This document shows, in pieces, positions 903 to 60,521 of a DNA stretch of 61,253 nucleotides. The notes below the pieces were generated by a model, which was not told where the DNA came from, searched no databases, and saw only the letters and a program-made list of their open reading frames with translations. Numbering within the stretch: position 1 is the stretch's first letter; every line of letters begins with the position of its first letter. The DNA comes from Planctomycetota bacterium (GTDB lineage: Bacteria; Planctomycetota; Phycisphaerae; WQYP01), in contig JAJZDN010000022.1 of assembly GCA_021805985.1 (NCBI GenBank), positions 1 through 61,253 of the forward strand. Reading direction: 5' to 3'. The position numbers and the translations under genes are program-made.

Positions 903-1148
903 TTACGGTTCAGTCGAATTGCCGAATCGTTTGCGGTGCCGCAGCGCCAAGTTGCTGCGGGTGGCAGCGTCACCTTCCAGCCAGTGCAGAATCAGAGCTT
1001 CCAGCACCAGCTTGGGATTGGCCAGATGCCGGGCGCAATCTTCTTCAAACGAGTCAAAGAGTTCGGTGTTGAAACGATAGGTGCGTTGCACGGTCAGAGG
1101 TTTGCGGGCCAGGTCCGAAGATTTCGCCGATTTACTTTGCTTTGCCAT
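903..1148 (-). CDS. Small protein of unknown function, shared by both elements
   Basis: 81 aa, basic N-terminus (about 20 residues rich in Lys, Ser and Ala), then a conserved core containing YRFNTELF, FEEDCARHLANPKLVLEAL and a basic tail. I do not recognise the family. The core, with a short strand-like segment followed by helices, could be a ribbon-helix-helix DNA-binding fold, but that is a guess. A homologue at 60273-60521 is nearly identical across the core and clearly similar at the DNA level. The gene is divergent from the excisionase-integrase unit, as its homologue is from the serine recombinase unit. The ATG at 1148 is preceded by AAGGTAG. Confidence 0.8.
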   Translation of the reverse strand: MAKQSKSAKSSDLARKPLTVQRTYRFNTELFDSFEEDCARHLANPKLVLEALILHWLEGDAATRSNLALRHRKRFGNSTEP

Positions 1149-4736: not shown

Positions 4737-7700
4737 ATGCCGGAACAGCCTGAAAAGCGTTATAAACCGGCAGTGACACAGCGACGTGCCGGGGCTGGCG
4801 GAGCAAGGCACTATGTGGAATTGCAAACCACCAGCAACTTCACATTTTTGCATGGAGCCAGTCACCCGGAGGAACTTATTCAGCGGGCCGCCGAACTGGA
4901 ATATGATGCCATTGCCCTGACGGATCACGCCACAATGGCCGGGATGGTGCGGGCGCACACCGCGGCCAAACAGGCCGGCATACAACTGATTGTCGGAACA
5001 TATATACGCATTGATTTGCCAACATCTGACTCTTATTCGCGGCCTTGTTGTAATGTGCTGTTATATCCCACCGATGTGGCCTCGTATGGTCGCCTGTGCC
5101 GCCTGATTACGCTGGGACGCAGACAGGCCGCCAAGGGATCTTATCGCATCACATTAGAAAATGTATTGACGCATCAGGCCGGTCTGCTGGTTATCGCCTT
5201 GCCACCGATGCACCCGGATGCCGCATTTACCGATACTCTGATGACCTTAAAATCCGTAGTGGATGATGATCGACTTTCACTGGCGATAAGCCGCCGCTAC
5301 GGTTGCGATGATGCTCAAACGCTTCAACAACTGGCGGAAATATCTCGTCACACGGAACTTGCACTGGTAGCAGTGAATGATGTGCTGTATCACGCGCCGC
5401 AACGCCAGCGGCTTCAGGATGTGCTGGCGTGCATCCGCCTGGGCTGCACGATTCATGAATTAGGCCTGCAGCGCATCACCCATGCTGAACGCCATTTGAA
5501 ATCACCAGGGGAAATGCACCACTTATTCCGGGATTACCCGCAGGCCTTGAAACGGCCGCTGGAAATAGCGGCACGGGCTAAAGCCTTTTCCATGGATCAA
5601 TTAACTTATCACTATCCACATGAAATTTGCCCGCCCGGCTTTACTCCGATGGACTACCTGATTCACTTAACACTAAAAGGGGCCGCGCAACGCTATCCGG
5701 ATGGCGTGCCGGAATCGCTGCAACGGCGGCTGGAACATGAATTTTCCCTGATCCGGGAATTAAATTATCCCGCGTACTTTCTTACCGTGTATGACATTGT
5801 GCGCTTTGCGGTATCACAGAATATTTTATGCCAGGGCCGCGGCGCGGCGGCCAATTCCGCAGTCTGTTATTGCCTGGGCATTACGGCGGTGGATCCGCAG
5901 CGCATTGACCTGCTGATGGAGCGGTTCATCAGTAAAGAACGCAATGAGCCGCCGGATATTGATATTGATTTTGAACATGAACGCCGCGAGGAAGTCATTC
6001 AATATATCTATAAACGTTTTGGCCGAAATCGTGCGGCCATTACCGCGGAAATTATTTCCTATCGCCGTAAAAGTGCGCTAAGGGATGTGGGCAAAGCCAT
6101 GGGCCTTTCCTTGGATTGTGTAGACAAACTGGCGAAAAGCGGCGACTGGTGGGAGAAGGGAATGATCCGGGAAAACCAACTGCGAAGCCTGGGGCTTAAC
6201 GCCTCAGACCCAACGCTTGCCCAGGTACTGGAGCTGGCGGGAGAATTAATCGGTTTTCCCCGCCATTTATCGCAGCATGTCGGCGGTTTTGTTATTACAG
6301 AACAACCGTTGTGTGAACTGGTTCCCATTGAAAATGCTGCCATGCCGGATCGCTCCATCATTCAATGGGACAAGGATGATCTGGATGCGATGGGCATTTT
6401 GAAAATTGATATTCTGGCTCTGGGGATGCTTACCTGCATCCGCAAAGCCATTGATCTGGTAAATAGCCAAAACACGCCCTGCCCTGCCGGACAGGACATC
6501 ACCTTTGCCACCGTGCCGGCAGAGATAACCAGCGTTTATGACATGCTGTGTCAGGCGGATAGCATTGGCGTGTTTCAAGTGGAATCACGGGCACAGATGG
6601 CCATGCTACCGCGGCTTAAACCGCGATGTTATTACGATCTGGTTATTGAAGTGGCCCTGGTGCGGCCCGGCCCCATTCAAGGCGGCATGGTGCATCCCTA
6701 TTTACGCCGACGTAGCGGACGGGAACCGGTGGACTATCCATCGGCGGCGGTGCGCGGGGTGCTGGAACGTACCTTGGGCGTACCGCTTTTTCAGGAACAG
6801 GTTATGCGACTGGCCATGGCGGCGGCAGGTTTTACACCGGGGCAGGCGGACGCATTACGCCGCAGCATGGCGGCGTGGAAACGCAAGGGCAACCAGTTGG
6901 CGGCATTCGGCGGACAATTGATCACCGGGATGTTGGGCAACGGCTATACGCAGGAATTTGCACAGCGCTGTTTTGAGCAGATCAAAGGCTTCGGAGAATA
7001 TGGGTTTCCCGAATCTCATGCCGCCTCGTTTGCGCTGTTGGTTTATGTGTCCGCATGGTTGAAATGCTTTTATCCGGCAGCTTTCGCGGCGGGGCTGTTA
7101 AACAGTCAGCCGATGGGATTTTATCAGCCAGCACAAATTATCCGCGATGCGCAAAATCACCGCGTACAAGTGCTGCCGGTGGATGTGAACCATTCTCAGT
7201 GGGACTGCACACTGGAATGGGCGTCGGGCGATGTGGCGTCGGCAAGCCGCCCGCTCTGTGCCGATGGGCCGGCTCTGCGATTGGGCTTGCGGATGGTGCG
7301 CAGCCTGCATCAGAGCGGCGCAGATTTAATATGCGATGCGGTGACACACCATGGCCGGATGGAATCGATTTCCACCTTACGCCGATTGAGCCGATGTAGC
7401 CTGGCGGATTTAAAATCTCTGGCACGGGCAGATGCGTTTGGTTCCATGGGCCTGGATCGGCAGGAAGCATTATGGAGCCTGCGGCGATTACGATCGCAGG
7501 CGATGCCCCTGCTGGATGAATTAAATCCGCCGGAACCGCGGCCCGGTTTGCCCATCATTGCGGAATCTGACAAAGTCATCGGCGATTATCAGAGCGTGGG
7601 ACTATCTCTTAAAGCCCATCCCATGTCCTTCGTGCGAGCGGTCCTTAATCAGCGCGGCATTATAGCAGCCGGCGAGTTAGCGGATGCCATTCGCCACCCC

Positions 7701-7997
7701 GATGCCAGCAAAGTGGCGGTGGCTGGATTGGTATTGGTGCGGCAGCGCCCCGGCACCGCATCCGGGATTTTATTTATCACCATGGAAGATGAAACCGGCA
7801 CCGTGAATCTGATTGTCAAACCGCGAATCTATCAGCGGTATCGCATGGACCTGCGCCACAGCACCGCCCTGGTGGTATGGGGTCAGGTGCAACGCCAGGA
7901 AGGCGTCACCCACATCATCGCCCGGAGGGCGGTCAATCTGCAAACCTTAACCCGCAGCACCGACACATTACAAAGTGTCTCGCGGGATTTTCATTGA
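4737..7997 (+). CDS. dnaE2: Error-prone DNA polymerase III alpha subunit DnaE2
   Basis: 1086 aa, a normal DnaE2 length. The N-terminal PHP domain (about 25-230) starts with the DnaE2-typical ELQTTSNFTFLHGASHPEEL and contains LTDHATMAG. The polymerase core has GRGAAANS and the active-site acidic run PPDIDIDFEHERREE (about 405-418). A helix-hairpin-helix region and a C-terminal OB fold (about 995-1060) follow. It carries out error-prone lesion bypass with ImuB at the replication clamp. It is co-transcribed with imuB. The ATG at 4737 has only a weak purine-rich site upstream, consistent with dependence on imuB translation. Confidence 0.95.
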   Translation: MPEQPEKRYKPAVTQRRAGAGGARHYVELQTTSNFTFLHGASHPEELIQRAAELEYDAIALTDHATMAGMVRAHTAAKQAGIQLIVGTYIRIDLPTSDSYSRPCCNVLLYPTDVASYGRLCRLITLGRRQAAKGSYRITLENVLTHQAGLLVIALPPMHPDAAFTDTLMTLKSVVDDDRLSLAISRRYGCDDAQTLQQLAEISRHTELALVAVNDVLYHAPQRQRLQDVLACIRLGCTIHELGLQRITHAERHLKSPGEMHHLFRDYPQALKRPLEIAARAKAFSMDQLTYHYPHEICPPGFTPMDYLIHLTLKGAAQRYPDGVPESLQRRLEHEFSLIRELNYPAYFLTVYDIVRFAVSQNILCQGRGAAANSAVCYCLGITAVDPQRIDLLMERFISKERNEPPDIDIDFEHERREEVIQYIYKRFGRNRAAITAEIISYRRKSALRDVGKAMGLSLDCVDKLAKSGDWWEKGMIRENQLRSLGLNASDPTLAQVLELAGELIGFPRHLSQHVGGFVITEQPLCELVPIENAAMPDRSIIQWDKDDLDAMGILKIDILALGMLTCIRKAIDLVNSQNTPCPAGQDITFATVPAEITSVYDMLCQADSIGVFQVESRAQMAMLPRLKPRCYYDLVIEVALVRPGPIQGGMVHPYLRRRSGREPVDYPSAAVRGVLERTLGVPLFQEQVMRLAMAAAGFTPGQADALRRSMAAWKRKGNQLAAFGGQLITGMLGNGYTQEFAQRCFEQIKGFGEYGFPESHAASFALLVYVSAWLKCFYPAAFAAGLLNSQPMGFYQPAQIIRDAQNHRVQVLPVDVNHSQWDCTLEWASGDVASASRPLCADGPALRLGLRMVRSLHQSGADLICDAVTHHGRMESISTLRRLSRCSLADLKSLARADAFGSMGLDRQEALWSLRRLRSQAMPLLDELNPPEPRPGLPIIAESDKVIGDYQSVGLSLKAHPMSFVRAVLNQRGIIAAGELADAIRHPDASKVAVAGLVLVRQRPGTASGILFITMEDETGTVNLIVKPRIYQRYRMDLRHSTALVVWGQVQRQEGVTHIIARRAVNLQTLTRSTDTLQSVSRDFH

Positions 7998-8112: not shown

Positions 8113-9435
8113 ATGTTACTTTCTTTTTCAGTAGAGAACTTCTATTCCTATCGGGAGCGGCAGACCCTAAGCCTGTTGGCTGAAGACCGCGAGGACTTGA
8201 TAGAAAACACAATCCCGATTGACGCTCCGGCCCTACGCGGACACCGAATAGTAAAGTTCGCCGGCATTTATGGTGCCAACGCATCCGGAAAAACCAACTT
8301 TCTCCTTGCCTTTCATCGGCTCACCGAGATCGTTGCAAATTCCGCTAAAGAAAGCACGTCGGCTGATCAATTACTTATCACGCCGTTCCAACTCGATGAT
8401 GCCTGGGCAAAACGACCAACTCACTTTTCCGCGACATTCGTGATCGATAACGTGGTCTACGTATATGACGTTTCGCTTAGCAAAGATCGCATACACTCCG
8501 AGGAACTGACGGCTTTTCCCAAAACACATCCTCAGCGACTTTTTAGTCGACGCGTAAACTCTCACGGAAAAAGCCAATGGCATTTCAGCCGCACGCACTT
8601 CCGACGGGACAAAGCCCTGGAAAGTCGAACCAGGCATAATAGCTTGTACCTTTCGGTTGGAGCATTATTCAACCATCCACAATTGGCAATGATCTCGGAA
8701 TATTTCTGCCGCTGCAGCCTGCGTGCGCCCCACTCCGCTGACACGGACTTTATTAAGCTTATGTCCCGGTGTGATACTGATACGAAGTTCAGTCGATGGG
8801 CTTCAGAGATGCTCTCCACAGCCCATACTGGGGTCGCCGCGTTGCGCCTGCGTGACGTGGATATACATGATCCGCATCTTGCGCATCTGCTGCTGGCGCA
8901 ACGTGACACCACGAAGCCGCATTCCTTCGGGGCAAAAGAAATGCAGGTAGCCCACGTGAAATCCGATGGGCAAACGGTTTGGTGGCCGATGCGATGGGAA
9001 TCTCAGGGAACAAAGCAATTATTGAGCCTTCTTCGCTCCTGGTATGACATACTAAACCAAGGGGGACTGGTTCTCGTGGACGAAATTGAGGCCAGCCTTC
9101 ACCCGTTGCTTTGCCGCCGCCTGCTTACAATGCTCGCGGAAACCCGCCCGAGCGAACACCACGGACAGCTGATATTTACAACGCATGACGCCACACTGCT
9201 GGACCTGAGCATTTTGCGCCGGGACCAGATTATTCTGGCGGAAAAATCCGGTGACGGAGCAACACAATTGGTTTCATTGCTTCATTACACACCCCGCGCC
9301 GGCGAGGCCCTCCAGAAAGGGTACCTTTCAGGCAGGTACGGTGCTATTCCTCTTTTAACGGAGTTGAAGCTTCATGGACAAAAACCGGCGAAAGGCAATT
9401 CCAAAAAAATTACACTATCTTCAACAAGCAGTTGA
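8113..9435 (+). CDS. rloA: RloA-like AAA15-family ATPase, anti-phage defence
   Basis: 440 aa. It starts with LSFSVENFYSYRE and has a Walker A GANASGKTN at 54-62, a Walker B with LVLVDEIEASLHP near 318-330 and an H-loop TTHDATLLD. This is the OLD/AAA15 type of ABC-like ATPase. With the TOPRIM protein encoded next it forms an RloA/RloB (AbiL-like) pair. By analogy with OLD, PARIS and AbiL systems, the ATPase is expected to sense a phage signal and release or activate the TOPRIM nuclease; that role is inferred. It overlaps rloB by 62 nt, implying coupled translation. It follows dnaE2 by 115 bp of AT-rich DNA, which probably carries its promoter. Confidence 0.85.
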   Translation: MLLSFSVENFYSYRERQTLSLLAEDREDLIENTIPIDAPALRGHRIVKFAGIYGANASGKTNFLLAFHRLTEIVANSAKESTSADQLLITPFQLDDAWAKRPTHFSATFVIDNVVYVYDVSLSKDRIHSEELTAFPKTHPQRLFSRRVNSHGKSQWHFSRTHFRRDKALESRTRHNSLYLSVGALFNHPQLAMISEYFCRCSLRAPHSADTDFIKLMSRCDTDTKFSRWASEMLSTAHTGVAALRLRDVDIHDPHLAHLLLAQRDTTKPHSFGAKEMQVAHVKSDGQTVWWPMRWESQGTKQLLSLLRSWYDILNQGGLVLVDEIEASLHPLLCRRLLTMLAETRPSEHHGQLIFTTHDATLLDLSILRRDQIILAEKSGDGATQLVSLLHYTPRAGEALQKGYLSGRYGAIPLLTELKLHGQKPAKGNSKKITLSSTSS

Positions 9436-10030
9436 TGACCGCAAAGTCACTCCCGTTATGCTCATTGTATGCGAAGGCTCGGCTACGGAGCCGACCTATT
9501 TTCAGGCAGTCACCAAGCACTTGCGCCTAGCGGCAGTTACCGTTCGAGGAGCCAAAGGTTCCGCGCCGATGACGGCCGTTCACGACGCCGTTGAGGCCAA
9601 GTTAAATCGCGAACAAATTGCCGATCAAAGCGCCTCGATTGCCCCTTATGACCACGTCTGGTGCGTGTTCGATGTTGACCAACATCCTAAAATGAAGGAT
9701 GCACTTGCATTTGCGGAGAAACATCAAATTAACGTAGCCCTTTCAAACCCCTGTTTTGAGTTCTGGCTCCTGTTGCATTTCGGGAGGTTTGCAACAACAG
9801 GTCAGTCACGTAATCAGATCCATCGGGAGCTGAAGCGGCACATCCCCGAGTATTGCAAAGGCGGCAATTACAGCCACCTATTATTGCCTGGCCTCAGCAG
9901 CGCAGTCGGGCACTCCGCAGATATTTGGAAGGCCCAATGGAGAATTACCAATCCGACGGCGTATAGCGCTTTGGCCAATAGCCCCAGCACCTTGGTTCAC
10001 AAGATCATTGAATGCTTGCAGCCAAAATAA
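9374..10030 (+). CDS. rloB: RloB-like TOPRIM-domain protein, partner of RloA
   Basis: 218 aa. After a basic N-terminus, MLIVCEGSATEPTYF supplies the TOPRIM glutamate and VFDVDQH the D-x-D pair. SNPCFEFWLLLHF is the signature of the RloB family. The likely role is effector nuclease of the RloA/RloB defence pair. The start at 9374 is preferred over an internal ATG at 9458 because GGAG lies upstream and the basic N-terminal segment is usual in RloB. The gene ends 41 bp before the left copy of the 73-bp repeat. Confidence 0.85.
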   Translation: MDKNRRKAIPKKLHYLQQAVDDRKVTPVMLIVCEGSATEPTYFQAVTKHLRLAAVTVRGAKGSAPMTAVHDAVEAKLNREQIADQSASIAPYDHVWCVFDVDQHPKMKDALAFAEKHQINVALSNPCFEFWLLLHFGRFATTGQSRNQIHRELKRHIPEYCKGGNYSHLLLPGLSSAVGHSADIWKAQWRITNPTAYSALANSPSTLVHKIIECLQPK

Positions 10031-10071
10031 CCGGTGTGAAGCTGAACCATTGAAAATACCAAGCCCCTCGG

Positions 10072-10144
10072 TCACACATGCCAAACGCGTAACACGATCT
10101 GTAAAATTATATTCACCTGTATGCCCGCGGCGATGTCGTCCAGC
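10072..10144. repeat. Left 73-bp direct repeat (orphan copy of the pgpA 3' end)
   Basis: Matches 12084-12156 at 72 of 73 positions (T at 10107 versus G at 12119). Read on the minus strand it would encode the last 23 to 24 residues of PgpA and its TGA. The single difference changes one Leu codon to Ile. No pgpA sequence continues beyond it: 5 bp later the endonuclease gene ends. Confidence 0.9.
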
Positions 10145-10148
10145 GGCG

Positions 10149-10676
10149 TCACCGACCAGTCCGGCGCGGGTCACTTTCTTTCTTACCGTCGCTGCTCTCA
10201 AAGACTAGCGTTCCAACTCGCCGCACCAAAGCCAACGGGATTTTTGGGTTGTTAATATCCGGCCGACCTGATTCAGCCAACTTTCTTTCTTGGGCCTTAA
10301 ACCATTGTTCCAGATCTCTGGTTTCAACTCGCCATACCTCCACCAATTCGATACCACTGTAAACGGAAAAATACCACGCTCTGACCCCGCGATATTTTTT
10401 TAAGATGACGGGGTTCAGGTGGTGATGCGTTGAAATACCCTTGGTAAGCAAGATATTGACCGATTTAAGTTCATATTCATAACCCTCCGCATCACGGCAG
10501 TCGTTTCCCTCACGACAACCAAGACCCTGCATGTTTAAGATCAGCAGTATCTGAAGGAGCTTACCGCCATTATCCTGAAAAATATCACGTATTCCATGCT
10601 TGCTGGCTAATTCTTGATATTTCCGAATATAAGGAAATAACACCTTTAACTTTTCCAGGTCCGAATGATGCCTCAT
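10149..10676 (-). CDS. pvuIIR: PvuII-family type II restriction endonuclease
   Basis: 175 aa, close to R.PvuII in length and clearly similar along its whole core. The metal and catalytic residues of PvuII (Asp34, Asp58, Glu68, Lys70) correspond here to Asp35 in FQDNGGK, Asp59 in REGND, and Glu69 and Lys71 in YELKS. The DNA-contacting histidines are in STHHHLNP (84-86). INNPKIP is also shared. It is therefore expected to cut CAGCTG between G and C; the specificity is inferred from homology. Its start overlaps the controller stop (ATGA, 10673-10676), as in the PvuII system, so the two are translationally coupled. A further 20 or so basic residues follow the PvuII-like end. Confidence 0.93.
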   Translation of the reverse strand: MRHHSDLEKLKVLFPYIRKYQELASKHGIRDIFQDNGGKLLQILLILNMQGLGCREGNDCRDAEGYEYELKSVNILLTKGISTHHHLNPVILKKYRGVRAWYFSVYSGIELVEVWRVETRDLEQWFKAQERKLAESGRPDINNPKIPLALVRRVGTLVFESSDGKKESDPRRTGR

Positions 10677-10933
10677 CGGGCTGGCCTCCCCTTCCCTCGG
10701 GAAGCATGTGGAATGAGATCAGCGGGTTCAATATTTAACGCAAGCGCCAAACGTTCCAGCGTTTCAAGACGAACAGAGCGGTGGTTACGCTCAATGAGGC
10801 TGATGTGTGTGCGGTGAATCCCGGCCCGATTAGCCAATTGCTCCTGTGACATCCCGCGCGCAATGCGAGCCTCACGCAGTAATTTGGAAAACTGCCTGGT
10901 AAAATCAGTTTCTCGCATTCGCTTTCCCGTCAT
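10673..10933 (-). CDS. Controller (C) protein of the restriction-modification system
   Basis: 86 aa from ATG at 10933 (81 aa from the next ATG at 10918). XRE-type helix-turn-helix: RGMSQEQLANRAGIHRTHISLIERN is typical of C proteins, which are about 80 residues long. C proteins bind boxes upstream of their own gene, activating C and R expression late and so delaying restriction until the DNA is methylated. It is divergent from the methyltransferase and overlaps the endonuclease by 4 nt. The open frame extends up to 11011 but would cover the control region, so the shorter start is preferred. Confidence 0.88.
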   Translation of the reverse strand: MTGKRMRETDFTRQFSKLLREARIARGMSQEQLANRAGIHRTHISLIERNHRSVRLETLERLALALNIEPADLIPHASRGKGRPAR

Positions 10934-10937
10934 CACC

Positions 10938-10962
10938 GACTCGCACTGACTCGCAACGTTGC
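10938..10962. promoter_or_regulatory. Candidate C-box region between C and M genes
   Basis: Two copies of GACTCGCA lie 10 bp apart (10938-10945 and 10948-10955), followed by the perfect palindrome GCAACGTTGC (10953-10962). It lies just upstream of the C start and overlaps the -35 box of the divergent methyltransferase promoter. C proteins of the PvuII type bind GACT/AGTC-containing boxes at this position. The arrangement here is direct rather than symmetric, so the exact operator is uncertain. Confidence 0.5.
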
Positions 10963-10987
10963 AACAAGGATAGGGAACTGGTAAAAT
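10959..10987 (+). promoter_or_regulatory. Promoter of the methyltransferase gene
   Basis: TTGCAA at 10959-10964, a 17-bp spacer and TAAAAT at 10982-10987. The leader to the ATG at 11036 is about 42 nt and includes AGGGA. Confidence 0.6.
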
Positions 10988-11035
10988 TCCTCTACAGACA
11001 AAGCGCAACATTGTGCCAAGCAGGGATATGGAAAA

Positions 11036-12034
11036 ATGCTACTGAACAACACTCATCAAAGGCACGACCATCGCCCCACGTTTACCACGCCGCTGGGACA
11101 AGCCATCGCCGGAGATTCCATGACGGTGCTAACCTCTTTAGAGCCGGAGTCCGTTGATCTCGTGGTAACCAGCCCCCCTTTTGCCCTGCTGCGGGAAAAA
11201 GACTACGGCAATCGGAGTCAGGAGGACTATATCGACTGGCTGTGTGATTTTGCGCCACTGGTTCATCGGGTTTTAAAATCCACTGGCAGCTATATCATTG
11301 ATATGGGCGGCGCTTATCAGCGAGGCGTACCGGTGCGATCGCTTTACAACTACCGCGTACTGTTGCGCCACGTCGACCAGCATGAATTTCATCTGGCGGA
11401 GGAATTCTTCTGGCATAATCCAAGTAAACTGCCATCACCGATTGAATGGGTAAACAAAAGAAAAATGAGAGCCAAGGACTCTGTCAATACCATCTGGTGG
11501 CTCAGTAAGACGCCGTGGCCCAAGGCCAACGTTTCGAATGTGCTCACGCCATATTCTCAACGCATGAGAACCCTGCTGAAGGATGCGAAAAAATTCTATA
11601 CGCCCAAGCAGCGCCCTTCGGGGCACAATATCAGCGAGGCTTTCGGCAAGGACAATGGGGGCGCTATTCCATCAAATCTGCTGCAATTCCCGAATACGGA
11701 GAGCAACAGCACGTACCTCCGCCTTTGCGAGACCTTTAATATCCGGCCCCATCCGGCCCGCTTCCCGCGACTGCTCCCCGATTTTTTTATAAAATTCCTT
11801 ACCGATCAAGGTGATATAGTACTGGACATCTTCGGGGGAAGTGGCACGACCGCGGAATCTGCCGAACTGCTGGGTCGAAGGTGGAAAACCGTCGAATTGG
11901 ACCCGGATTATGTCAAATCTGCTTCATTCCGCTTTCTGGGTGATCGGTCCGAATGTGAAGTTAAAGTGGCACTTAGCGCCATTGACGCCGGCGCATCCCC
12001 AATCATAGCGCCACGCCAACTCCAACTGCTGTAA
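11036..12034 (+). CDS. pvuIIM: PvuII-family N4-cytosine DNA methyltransferase
   Basis: 332 aa. The catalytic motif TSPPF is at 45-49, near the N-terminus, and the AdoMet-binding motif FGGSGTT is at 266-272, near the C-terminus. This permuted (beta-class) order and the stretches LPSPIEWVNKRK, NTESNS and HPARFP match M.PvuII closely. It is expected to methylate the inner cytosine of CAGCTG and so protect the host from the neighbouring endonuclease; specificity is by homology. It is divergent from the C-R operon. The ATG at 11028 a few bases upstream runs into a stop after five codons, so 11036 is the start. Confidence 0.94.
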   Translation: MLLNNTHQRHDHRPTFTTPLGQAIAGDSMTVLTSLEPESVDLVVTSPPFALLREKDYGNRSQEDYIDWLCDFAPLVHRVLKSTGSYIIDMGGAYQRGVPVRSLYNYRVLLRHVDQHEFHLAEEFFWHNPSKLPSPIEWVNKRKMRAKDSVNTIWWLSKTPWPKANVSNVLTPYSQRMRTLLKDAKKFYTPKQRPSGHNISEAFGKDNGGAIPSNLLQFPNTESNSTYLRLCETFNIRPHPARFPRLLPDFFIKFLTDQGDIVLDIFGGSGTTAESAELLGRRWKTVELDPDYVKSASFRFLGDRSECEVKVALSAIDAGASPIIAPRQLQLL

Positions 12035-12083
12035 ATGACATGGCATATTTACGTTCTTTCGGAATTTTTAGCCACTATAAAAA

Positions 12084-12156
12084 TCACACATGCCAAACGC
12101 GTAACACGATCTGTAAAAGTATATTCACCTGTATGCCCGCGGCGATGTCGTCCAGC
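12084..12156. repeat. Right 73-bp direct repeat (in-frame 3' end of pgpA)
   Basis: Begins exactly at the pgpA stop codon and covers its last 24 codons. It differs from the left copy at one position. After the repeat the two sequences have nothing in common. Confidence 0.9.
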
Positions 12157-12632
12157 AGAATGCCCCAGCCGGCGGGTAGGTTTTCCAATTGCCGGCACGG
12201 CGGAAGCTTGAGCGTATCAAAAAGGCGAAAGAGAATGTACACGGCCGCGGTGGCCAGCCACGCATGCCACAAACTGCTTGTGGCGCTTACGGGCAGAGGT
12301 AAAAACAGGCACGCGACCCAGTAGCCGCAATACTCATCAAGAACCACAGAGCCGGGATCTTCCCGACCGAAATATCGGATCGCCCAGGGCGACAATTGCA
12401 CGGTCAAAATGCCTGCGATGATCGCGCCAACCAGGCACACCACCGATCGCCAGGGCTCAGATACCTTCCCCCATAGCAGCATCCAAAACAGAATTGCCGG
12501 GCCAAGAGTCCCCCAACTTCCCGGTGCCGGCTTAAGCAATCCCAACCCTCCACCAGTGATAACCCATTTACGCCAGGACGATAACGTCGGCGGCTGATTT
12601 TCTGTTTTTTGGATGGATGGATTAGTGTTCAT
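12084..12632 (-). CDS. pgpA: Phosphatidylglycerophosphatase A
   Basis: 182 aa membrane enzyme that removes the phosphate from phosphatidylglycerophosphate, the last step of phosphatidylglycerol synthesis. Family motifs are LKPAPGSWGTLG near the N-terminus, the acidic DEYCGYW (E. coli has DEFVG) in the middle, FRLFDTLKLPP and a final DDIAAG. Several hydrophobic segments span 45-165. It lies upstream of the restriction-modification insertion and its last 24 codons are duplicated at 10072-10144, so the present end may be native or brought in by the cassette. It is about 126 bp downstream of pgsA, which makes the enzyme's substrate. Confidence 0.9.
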   Translation of the reverse strand: MNTNPSIQKTENQPPTLSSWRKWVITGGGLGLLKPAPGSWGTLGPAILFWMLLWGKVSEPWRSVVCLVGAIIAGILTVQLSPWAIRYFGREDPGSVVLDEYCGYWVACLFLPLPVSATSSLWHAWLATAAVYILFRLFDTLKLPPCRQLENLPAGWGILLDDIAAGIQVNILLQIVLRVWHV

Positions 12633-15161: not shown

Positions 15162-15415
15162 ATTGCTAACACATTATCCATCATCATGAAAAACCGTCGT
15201 TTAAGAGTGTTGAGGATAGCAGAAATCAGGGGGTAAAACCAGCAGTCTGCGCACAGCCTGTGCCCTATCCTGGCCGCCGATCACGCCCACACCGGACAGC
15301 CACACCGCGTGTTCATACTCCATCGCGTTTCGCATCCAACCGCGACACATGCCCTTAGCTCAATGCGGCAGCGTTGAGTTGAACGCGGAAATGAAATCTC
15401 ATGACACGATGCGCC

Positions 15416-60272: not shown

Positions 60273-60521
60273 ATGGCCAAACGAACCAAACCAGCAAAGA
60301 CCGCCAAGAGCGCCGACAGGCCCCTGACCGTCCAGAGAACCTATCGGTTCAATACCGAACTCTTTGAATCCTTTGAAGAGGATTGCGCCCGGCACTTGGC
60401 CAATCCCAAGCTGGTGCTGGAGGCGCTGATTCTGCACTGGCTGGAAGGTGACGCCAAGGCCCGAAGTGCCATCGCGATGCGTCATCGCCAACGCTTTGGA
60501 TTATCTTCCCAGGACCAGTAA
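60273..60521 (+). CDS. Small protein of unknown function, homologue of the 903-1148 gene
   Basis: 82 aa from the ATG at 60273; a TTG nine bases upstream is less likely. Basic N-terminus (KRTKPAKTAKSADR), then the same core as the left-element protein: PLTVQRTYRFNTELF, FEEDCARHLANPKL and LILHWLEGDA are shared. The tails diverge. High conservation of protein and DNA in two different elements suggests a maintained function or recent exchange. A DNA-binding role is a guess from size and charge. Confidence 0.8.
   Translation: MAKRTKPAKTAKSADRPLTVQRTYRFNTELFESFEEDCARHLANPKLVLEALILHWLEGDAKARSAIAMRHRQRFGLSSQDQ

Follow-up and report, generated by a model that had tools for sequence, protein, structure and literature searches.

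How does a restriction-modification (R-M) system come to lie between two copies of the last 73 bp of a conserved housekeeping gene, with no recombinase found between them? The question is posed by the window, the whole stretch of 61,253 nucleotides analyzed here (contig C129), which belongs to a planctomycete genome of 4.68 Mb in 197 contigs. From left to right, the locus contains dnaE2, rloA and rloB on the forward strand, the left 73-bp copy, the R and C genes on the reverse strand, the divergent M gene on the forward strand, a spacer, and pgpA on the reverse strand. The left wall of the interval is a polymerase gene with Pfam DNA polymerase III alpha domains (4737..7997, forward strand), which we take to be dnaE2. 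It is followed by rloA (8113..9435, forward strand), encoding an AbiLi-like ATPase (PADLOC AbiLi match), and the AbiLii-like gene rloB (9374..10030, forward strand; PF13707, 6.4e-39; PADLOC AbiLii match), both adjoining what we read below as the old end of pgpA. The right wall is pgpA itself (12084..12632, reverse strand), encoding phosphatidylglycerophosphatase A (PF04608, 2.7e-34).

The R gene (10149..10676, reverse strand) encodes a PvuII-type restriction endonuclease (PF09225, 1.7e-56; PDB PvuII 1eyu, 1.4e-53) with 16 residues outside the Pfam match. All four catalytic residues, presumably Asp34, Asp58, Glu68 and Lys70 in PvuII numbering, are kept in an alignment to 3ksk. The C gene (10673..10918, reverse strand) encodes a controller protein (PADLOC Control_protein; C.BclI and C.AhdI structures), its start being set at the ATG at 10918 while the longest open reading frame starts at 11011. 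M (11036..12034, forward strand) is a PvuII-type N4-cytosine methyltransferase (PF01555, 6e-38; M.PvuII 1boo, 2.2e-120). It is divergent to R, as in the PvuII system, and five other loci of the class (L056-L060), compared for R/M order, have the same arrangement. To judge from its sequence, the R-C-M cassette looks intact, with the R family and the divergent M of a PvuII-type Type II system. It shares the R, C and M families and the R/M order with the system of the Proteus vulgaris plasmid NC_002632 (57% identity in R), but lies on a 61-kb contig beside housekeeping genes rather than on a small plasmid. PvuII-type systems cut and methylate CAGCTG. This hexamer occurs five times in the window against 10.5 expected; it is low in the relatives too, as are other palindromes (GAGCTC, 0 against 5.3). 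PF09225 was found in seven of the 397 genomes of the class, and the window's genome is the sole carrier among eight of its genus, some of them 67-88% complete. Close relatives of R on phages or plasmids were also sought; the 11 viral loci reach 37-56% identity and the 11 plasmid records all stay below 60%.

The original prediction placed these genes between two 73-bp direct repeats with one mismatch, and this description holds: 10072..10144 (reverse strand) and 12084..12156 (reverse strand) are identical at 72 of 73 positions. As also predicted, the right copy is the functional, in-frame end of pgpA, beginning at the stop codon and comprising 24 terminal codons, counting the stop, and one further base, and the left copy is an orphan without attached pgpA body, separated by four bases (10145-10148) from the R stop codon (10149-10151). 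Matches to the 73-bp sequence in the 4.68-Mb genome are these two copies (E 6e-32 and 1e-30), and among the repeats listed for the window they form the sole direct repeat of at least 36 nt. An inverted repeat pair of 188 nt, 81% complementary, lies near the two ends of the window (922-1109 and 60312-60499) and has seven matches in the genome including itself, at 80-100%. No recombinase or integrase was found between the 73-bp copies, in line with the prediction; the open reading frames R, C and M fill the stretch and gave only endonuclease, helix-turn-helix and methylase families. We rejected an older, longer duplication of pgpA, which had been named as a sign that the duplication predates the cassette: beyond the 73 bp, the sequence beside the left copy is no more similar than stretches drawn at random from the window (of 3000 such stretches, fractions of 0.34, 0.44 and 0.62 reached an equal score inward, and 0.36 and 0.17 outward).

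We compared the locus with seven genomes of the same genus (G001-G007); all 13 named records of relatives are metagenome-assembled. In a wider search, pgpA was matched in 55 of 61 genomes and a second match, the left copy, was present only in the window's genome. Two copies without a cassette, the other finding named in advance as contrary, were thus absent from the 54 other genomes with a pgpA match, each of which has one match, although a strongly decayed 73-bp copy could escape such a search. Three of the seven same-genus genomes (G003, G005 and G007) have the order dnaE2-rloAB-one copy-pgpA, i.e., an empty site. The comparison proposed with the prediction gave the expected outcome here: these cassette-free genomes have exactly one copy, adjoining rloB, and its 73 bp continue into pgpA as they do after 12156 in the window.

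Three further genomes contain the second kind of allele, in which M or a piece of it adjoins pgpA and R-C is absent. G002 has dnaE2-X-M-pgpA with an M that is 85% identical in amino acids to that of the window, G006 has dnaE2-X-M remnant-pgpA, the remnant being a 3' one, and G004 has dnaE2-M 3' end-pgpA. No match to rloAB or the left copy was found in these three. G001 has neither allele type; by eye, a trpF-like gene follows its pgpA. G003 and G006 carry different alleles although their pgpA bodies are 97.5% alike. Between the window and G002, pgpA differs by 24%, and the synonymous divergence (dS) is 0.91 for M and 1.6, near saturation, for pgpA; M and pgpA may have been kept together for long. 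More distant M relatives (51-53%) are located elsewhere in G003 and G007 (L048, L049, L054), in which no PvuII-type R was found.

The gene X encodes 291-325 aa (L035:5913-6788 and L037:18571-19548) and is found in 21 of the 397 genomes of the class, including G006 and G002. It has no Pfam match at 0.1, no NCBIfam match and one weak PADLOC match (E 0.002). We considered X as the cognate endonuclease of M and rejected this, there being no methyltransferase near X in 10 other loci (L078-L087), where open reading frames of at least 100 aa were read by eye over about 1.5 kb at most on each side. X seems to stand on its own, perhaps as a nuclease judging by eye only, and M in G002 looks like an orphan.

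The empty site would suit an ancestral arrangement of cassette and both copies, followed by loss of the cassette, through recombination between the repeats, in the rloAB-pgpA genomes and of the left part in the M-pgpA genomes, since such recombination would be expected to give exactly the one-copy state. We disfavor this reading as very unlikely: the copies differ at only one (window) or five (a second carrier, see below) of 73 sites, against the 24% by which pgpA differs between G002 and the window, and neither rloAB nor a left copy was matched in any M-pgpA genome.

The window agrees with the rloAB allele up to 10144, and from 11017 on its M, spacer and pgpA agree with the M alleles. The 49-bp spacer between M and pgpA (12035..12083) shares homology with the one beside the M remnant of G006 (none of 5000 shuffles scores as high); no such homology was found with the spacers between rloB and pgpA in G007, in G003 or in the window. 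The window's left spacer, in turn, is similar to its counterparts in G007 (p 0.0006) and G003 (p 0.02). The 17-bp spacer of G002 has 29% identity to that of the window, with no convincing alignment. With M or its remnant next to pgpA in G002, G004 and G006 and a homologous spacer in G006, the right border (M-spacer-pgpA) is, by this comparison, older than the event and not a new insertion border. The outer edge of the repeat coincides with the pgpA stop codon because the rloAB-type and M-type alleles diverge at that point.

The junction between R and the left copy, by contrast with the M-pgpA junction, has no counterpart in the seven genomes of the genus. Here, the 3' flank of R is joined to pgpA sequence 73 nt before the gene end (10144..10145), and an exact 25-base pattern spanning the joint occurs, among 98 loci, only in the window's genome and in the second carrier; in viral contigs it was not found. 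Likewise, positions 10145-11016, covering R, C and some of the C-M gap, lack a counterpart in the seven genomes. Since the divergent R/M order recurs in five other loci, R-C-M is taken as one unit, which is suggested to have come, and to travel, as such; 10144|10145 is then the one new junction. A second new junction before M is conceivable, given that 10145-11016 has no counterpart.

We consider it moderately probable that two alleles of the dnaE2-pgpA interval were joined unequally, homologously at pgpA and illegitimately beyond R. Both alleles would have met in one cell, the recipient being dnaE2-rloAB-pgpA and the incoming DNA carrying R-C-M directly downstream of pgpA. Pairing by homology at pgpA would have brought M, the spacer and the pgpA 3' end into register, forming the right border, while the other end, just past R, would have been attached, with no long homology, to the recipient's pgpA at a point 73 nt short of its end (10144|10145). 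The recipient's old pgpA end would thereby have been displaced and left beside rloB, with the other copy completing the gene. The donor segment was probably already linked to a pgpA end. We infer a one-sided (homology-facilitated illegitimate) mechanism, with R-C arriving together with M, and exchange between the two copies.

Four observations support the joining of two alleles: the empty site, the M-pgpA linkage in three relatives, the presence of the joint in a second contig, and the low cassette divergence between two backgrounds. Moreover, the left copy lies beside an rloB spacer as in G003, G005 and G007, and the right copy beside an M spacer as in G006, as displacement would have it. The left copy is therefore best read as the displaced old pgpA end, and it carries the base usual in relatives at the sole difference between the copies, 10107 T (left, Ile) versus 12119 G (pgpA, Leu). 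The left-copy base is present in six of eight other pgpA ends (L068, the second carrier, and G001-G007), G004 and G001 carrying other bases, and the right-copy base is found in none. On this base comparison, the changed copy is the functional one. The Leu/Ile swap had been taken to fit a copy from a related genome rather than decay; the difference is no sign of a foreign orphan, which keeps the usual base.

Two features stand against the joining of two different parents. A T located 13 nt from the gene end (third base of a Val codon) is present in both window copies and in the left copy of L068 but missing in seven of the eight other pgpA ends; the eighth, in G001, has it in a stretch only 68% identical. 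Both window copies also end in His-Val like the rloAB alleles, unlike the M-linked ends (Arg-Met in G006 and G002, His-Met in G004). Two parents are not expected to share a rare base; the common T calls for, and fits, either conversion between the copies or a true duplication of a single target. In addition, a complete R-C-M was found at pgpA only together with the left copy (PF09225 being present in the seven genomes of the class mentioned above).

In a target duplication, R-C-M and the spacer would have entered a staggered break at the pgpA end, and fill-in would have doubled the recipient's own 73 bp. The shared T, the His-Val ending and the one-copy empty site all agree with this, and R-M genes inserted with duplications of around 100 bp are on record (PMC3874152). 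We nevertheless consider it rather unlikely. The spacer at the end of the inserted segment already abuts the pgpA stop codon in G006, so that an unguided insertion in precisely that register would be a coincidence. Only one border is new at the target, the M-spacer-pgpA border being common to G006 and the M-pgpA adjacency to G002 and G004. As to the origin of the copies, the rare base common to those of the window speaks for the recipient's own target; those of L068 differ at 5/73 sites. The original prediction of an insertion into a native locus is thus borne out in its direction, the synonymous divergence given below suggesting that the cassette is the newcomer, and fails at the right border, which is not new.

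The second carrier, L068 (JAJZEQ010000014.1, 3135 bp), encodes pgpA-M-C-R-left copy-rloB remnant-dnaE2 end with the same joint. It is one short contig with a coverage of 2.3 in a bin labelled Proteobacteria, where it is probably misplaced. The 13 metagenome-assembled records and the 197 contigs of the window's genome could raise the suspicion of an assembly artefact of the metagenome bin. This is unlikely, indeed scarcely credible, because the same joint recurs in L068 with its own substitutions; besides, a mistaken fusion of two strains at their common pgpA end would not be expected to yield the joint of R to the left copy. L068 itself might be a chimera joined within 57 bases that are identical to the window, which is disfavored because both of its flanks are G007-like. 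The two L068 copies have a common private base 16 nt from the end, which suggests conversion.

The cassette of L068 is close to that of the window (dS 0.073 for R, 0.105 for C and 0.10 for M) compared with a dS of 0.423 for the pgpA body. The L068 pgpA body is 95.9% identical to that of G007 and 88.6% to that of the window, and its dnaE2 end is identical to G007 at 99 of 99 bases and 94% identical to the window. Among 14 differences between the window and G007 located 189 to 94 nt from the gene end, L068 agrees with G007 at 13 and with the window at one (160). Five such differences lie in the last 73 nt, where L068 has the window base at 73, 39 and 37 and the G007 base at 36 and 13; G007 alone changed at 73, its base is common to G002 at 39 and 37, and the window alone changed at 36 and 13. 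A change-point fit places the start of the tract shared by window and L068 at 10044-10067 and its end at 12155-12188, so that it covers the repeat-flanked unit and extends 5-28 bp beyond it on the left and no more than 32 bp on the right. As far as these alignments tell, the cassette unit has moved: a window-like cassette lies in a G007-like background, with borders close to the repeats.

Such a transfer between backgrounds, with borders close to the repeats, could also point to a circle of R-C-M, the spacer and one 73-bp pgpA end that integrated through one crossover at the pgpA end, with no recombinase involved, the repeat-flanked unit being the transferable form. Circular intermediates of this kind have been proposed for the C-terminal displacement of rhs tips (PMC2935791). 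We regard this as quite improbable here. A single crossover should place both borders inside the 73 bp, but on the left the border is 5-28 bp beyond the repeat, and at the separating sites the left copy of L068 has the bases of the window, not those of G007.

The rloB remnant of L068 (L068:2489-2600) is about 64% like that of the window (0.36 differences per base) and, by eye, not clearly closer to G007 or G003; this divergence, despite the G007-like outer flanks, is explained by no model considered, including the joining of two alleles. The place of most of rloAB in L068 is occupied by a dispersed repeat (L068:2600-3040; window 15325-15409), for which 41 matches are listed in the window's genome. 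The C-M control region (10926-11035) has 85% identity between window and L068, compared with 96-97% in the flanking genes.

The rloA genes of the window and its relatives have a dS of 0.325 (G007) and 0.508 (G003). Respective values are 0.227 and 0.314 for dnaE2, 0.379 and 0.483 for pgpA, and 0.458 and 0.452 for pgsA, so the window's rloA diverges 1.4-1.6 times as much as dnaE2 and 0.9-1.1 times as much as pgpA. These values suggest that the rloAB-pgpA allele is native to the window and no recent import, with R-C-M as the newcomer. We further infer that the 73-bp repeats should permit a RecA-type excision that restores an intact rloAB-pgpA locus.

A different picture emerges between G003 and G005, where dS is 0.006 for rloA and 0.007 for rloB against 0.078 for dnaE2, 0.16 for pgpA and 0.044 for pgsA. 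The rloAB tract (L034/L036) is 99.7-99.8% identical, compared with differences of 3-5% in dnaE2 and pgpA; it starts in the last part of dnaE2, and the first mismatch lies inside pgpA, 30 nt from the stop. By these divergence values, G003 and G005 have recently exchanged rloAB, one border of the exchange lying about 30 nt into pgpA. This suggests that exchange at the dnaE2-pgpA interval goes beyond R-M and that defence genes are swapped there. We raise as a tentative and still doubtful possibility that the last ~90 nt of pgpA are a recombinase-free docking site in this genus, where species trade defence cassettes (rloAB, R-C-M, perhaps X-M) by recombination with a border at the pgpA end, the R-C-M flanked by 73 bp being a mobile form with its own homology arm.

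The locus is a clear case of a known kind, combining an R-M system with long flanking duplication and a 3'-end displacement. Work by Nobusato in 2000 and Furuta in 2010 reportedly described R-M insertion with long target duplication. The locus is like such insertions in that R-M genes have a long direct target duplication that is absent from the insert-free genome. It is unlike them in that the M-spacer-pgpA border predates the event and is common to relatives, and in that the duplicated stretch is the end of the would-be anchor gene. Elements integrating at tRNA genes restore the gene 3' end; a restored gene end and a second copy of it at the far side are seen here as well, but no integrase or other recombinase family was found between the repeats. 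Three reports describe R-M genes that insert with target duplications of the order of 100 bp (PMC3874152, PMC3031569, PMC1643837). Homology-facilitated illegitimate recombination leaving orphan 3' ends is described, and called rare, in PMC5361080, and the displacement of rhs tips in PMC2935791. In those rhs and T6SS effector loci, as here, a new gene end arrives with new downstream genes and the old end is orphaned beside its old neighbor. Here, however, the anchor is a conserved housekeeping gene whose product is hardly changed, and the cargo is a restriction system.

The value of this locus lies in its relatives, which show both kinds of parental allele and a border that recurs at the pgpA end. 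The puzzle of R-M insertion with duplications of about 100 bp and without a transposase would thereby receive a testable answer, namely that two alleles of a single interval were joined unequally, with the flanking gene as anchor. The locus also points to a small interval in which defence genes are exchanged across species, with the end of a housekeeping gene as the border.
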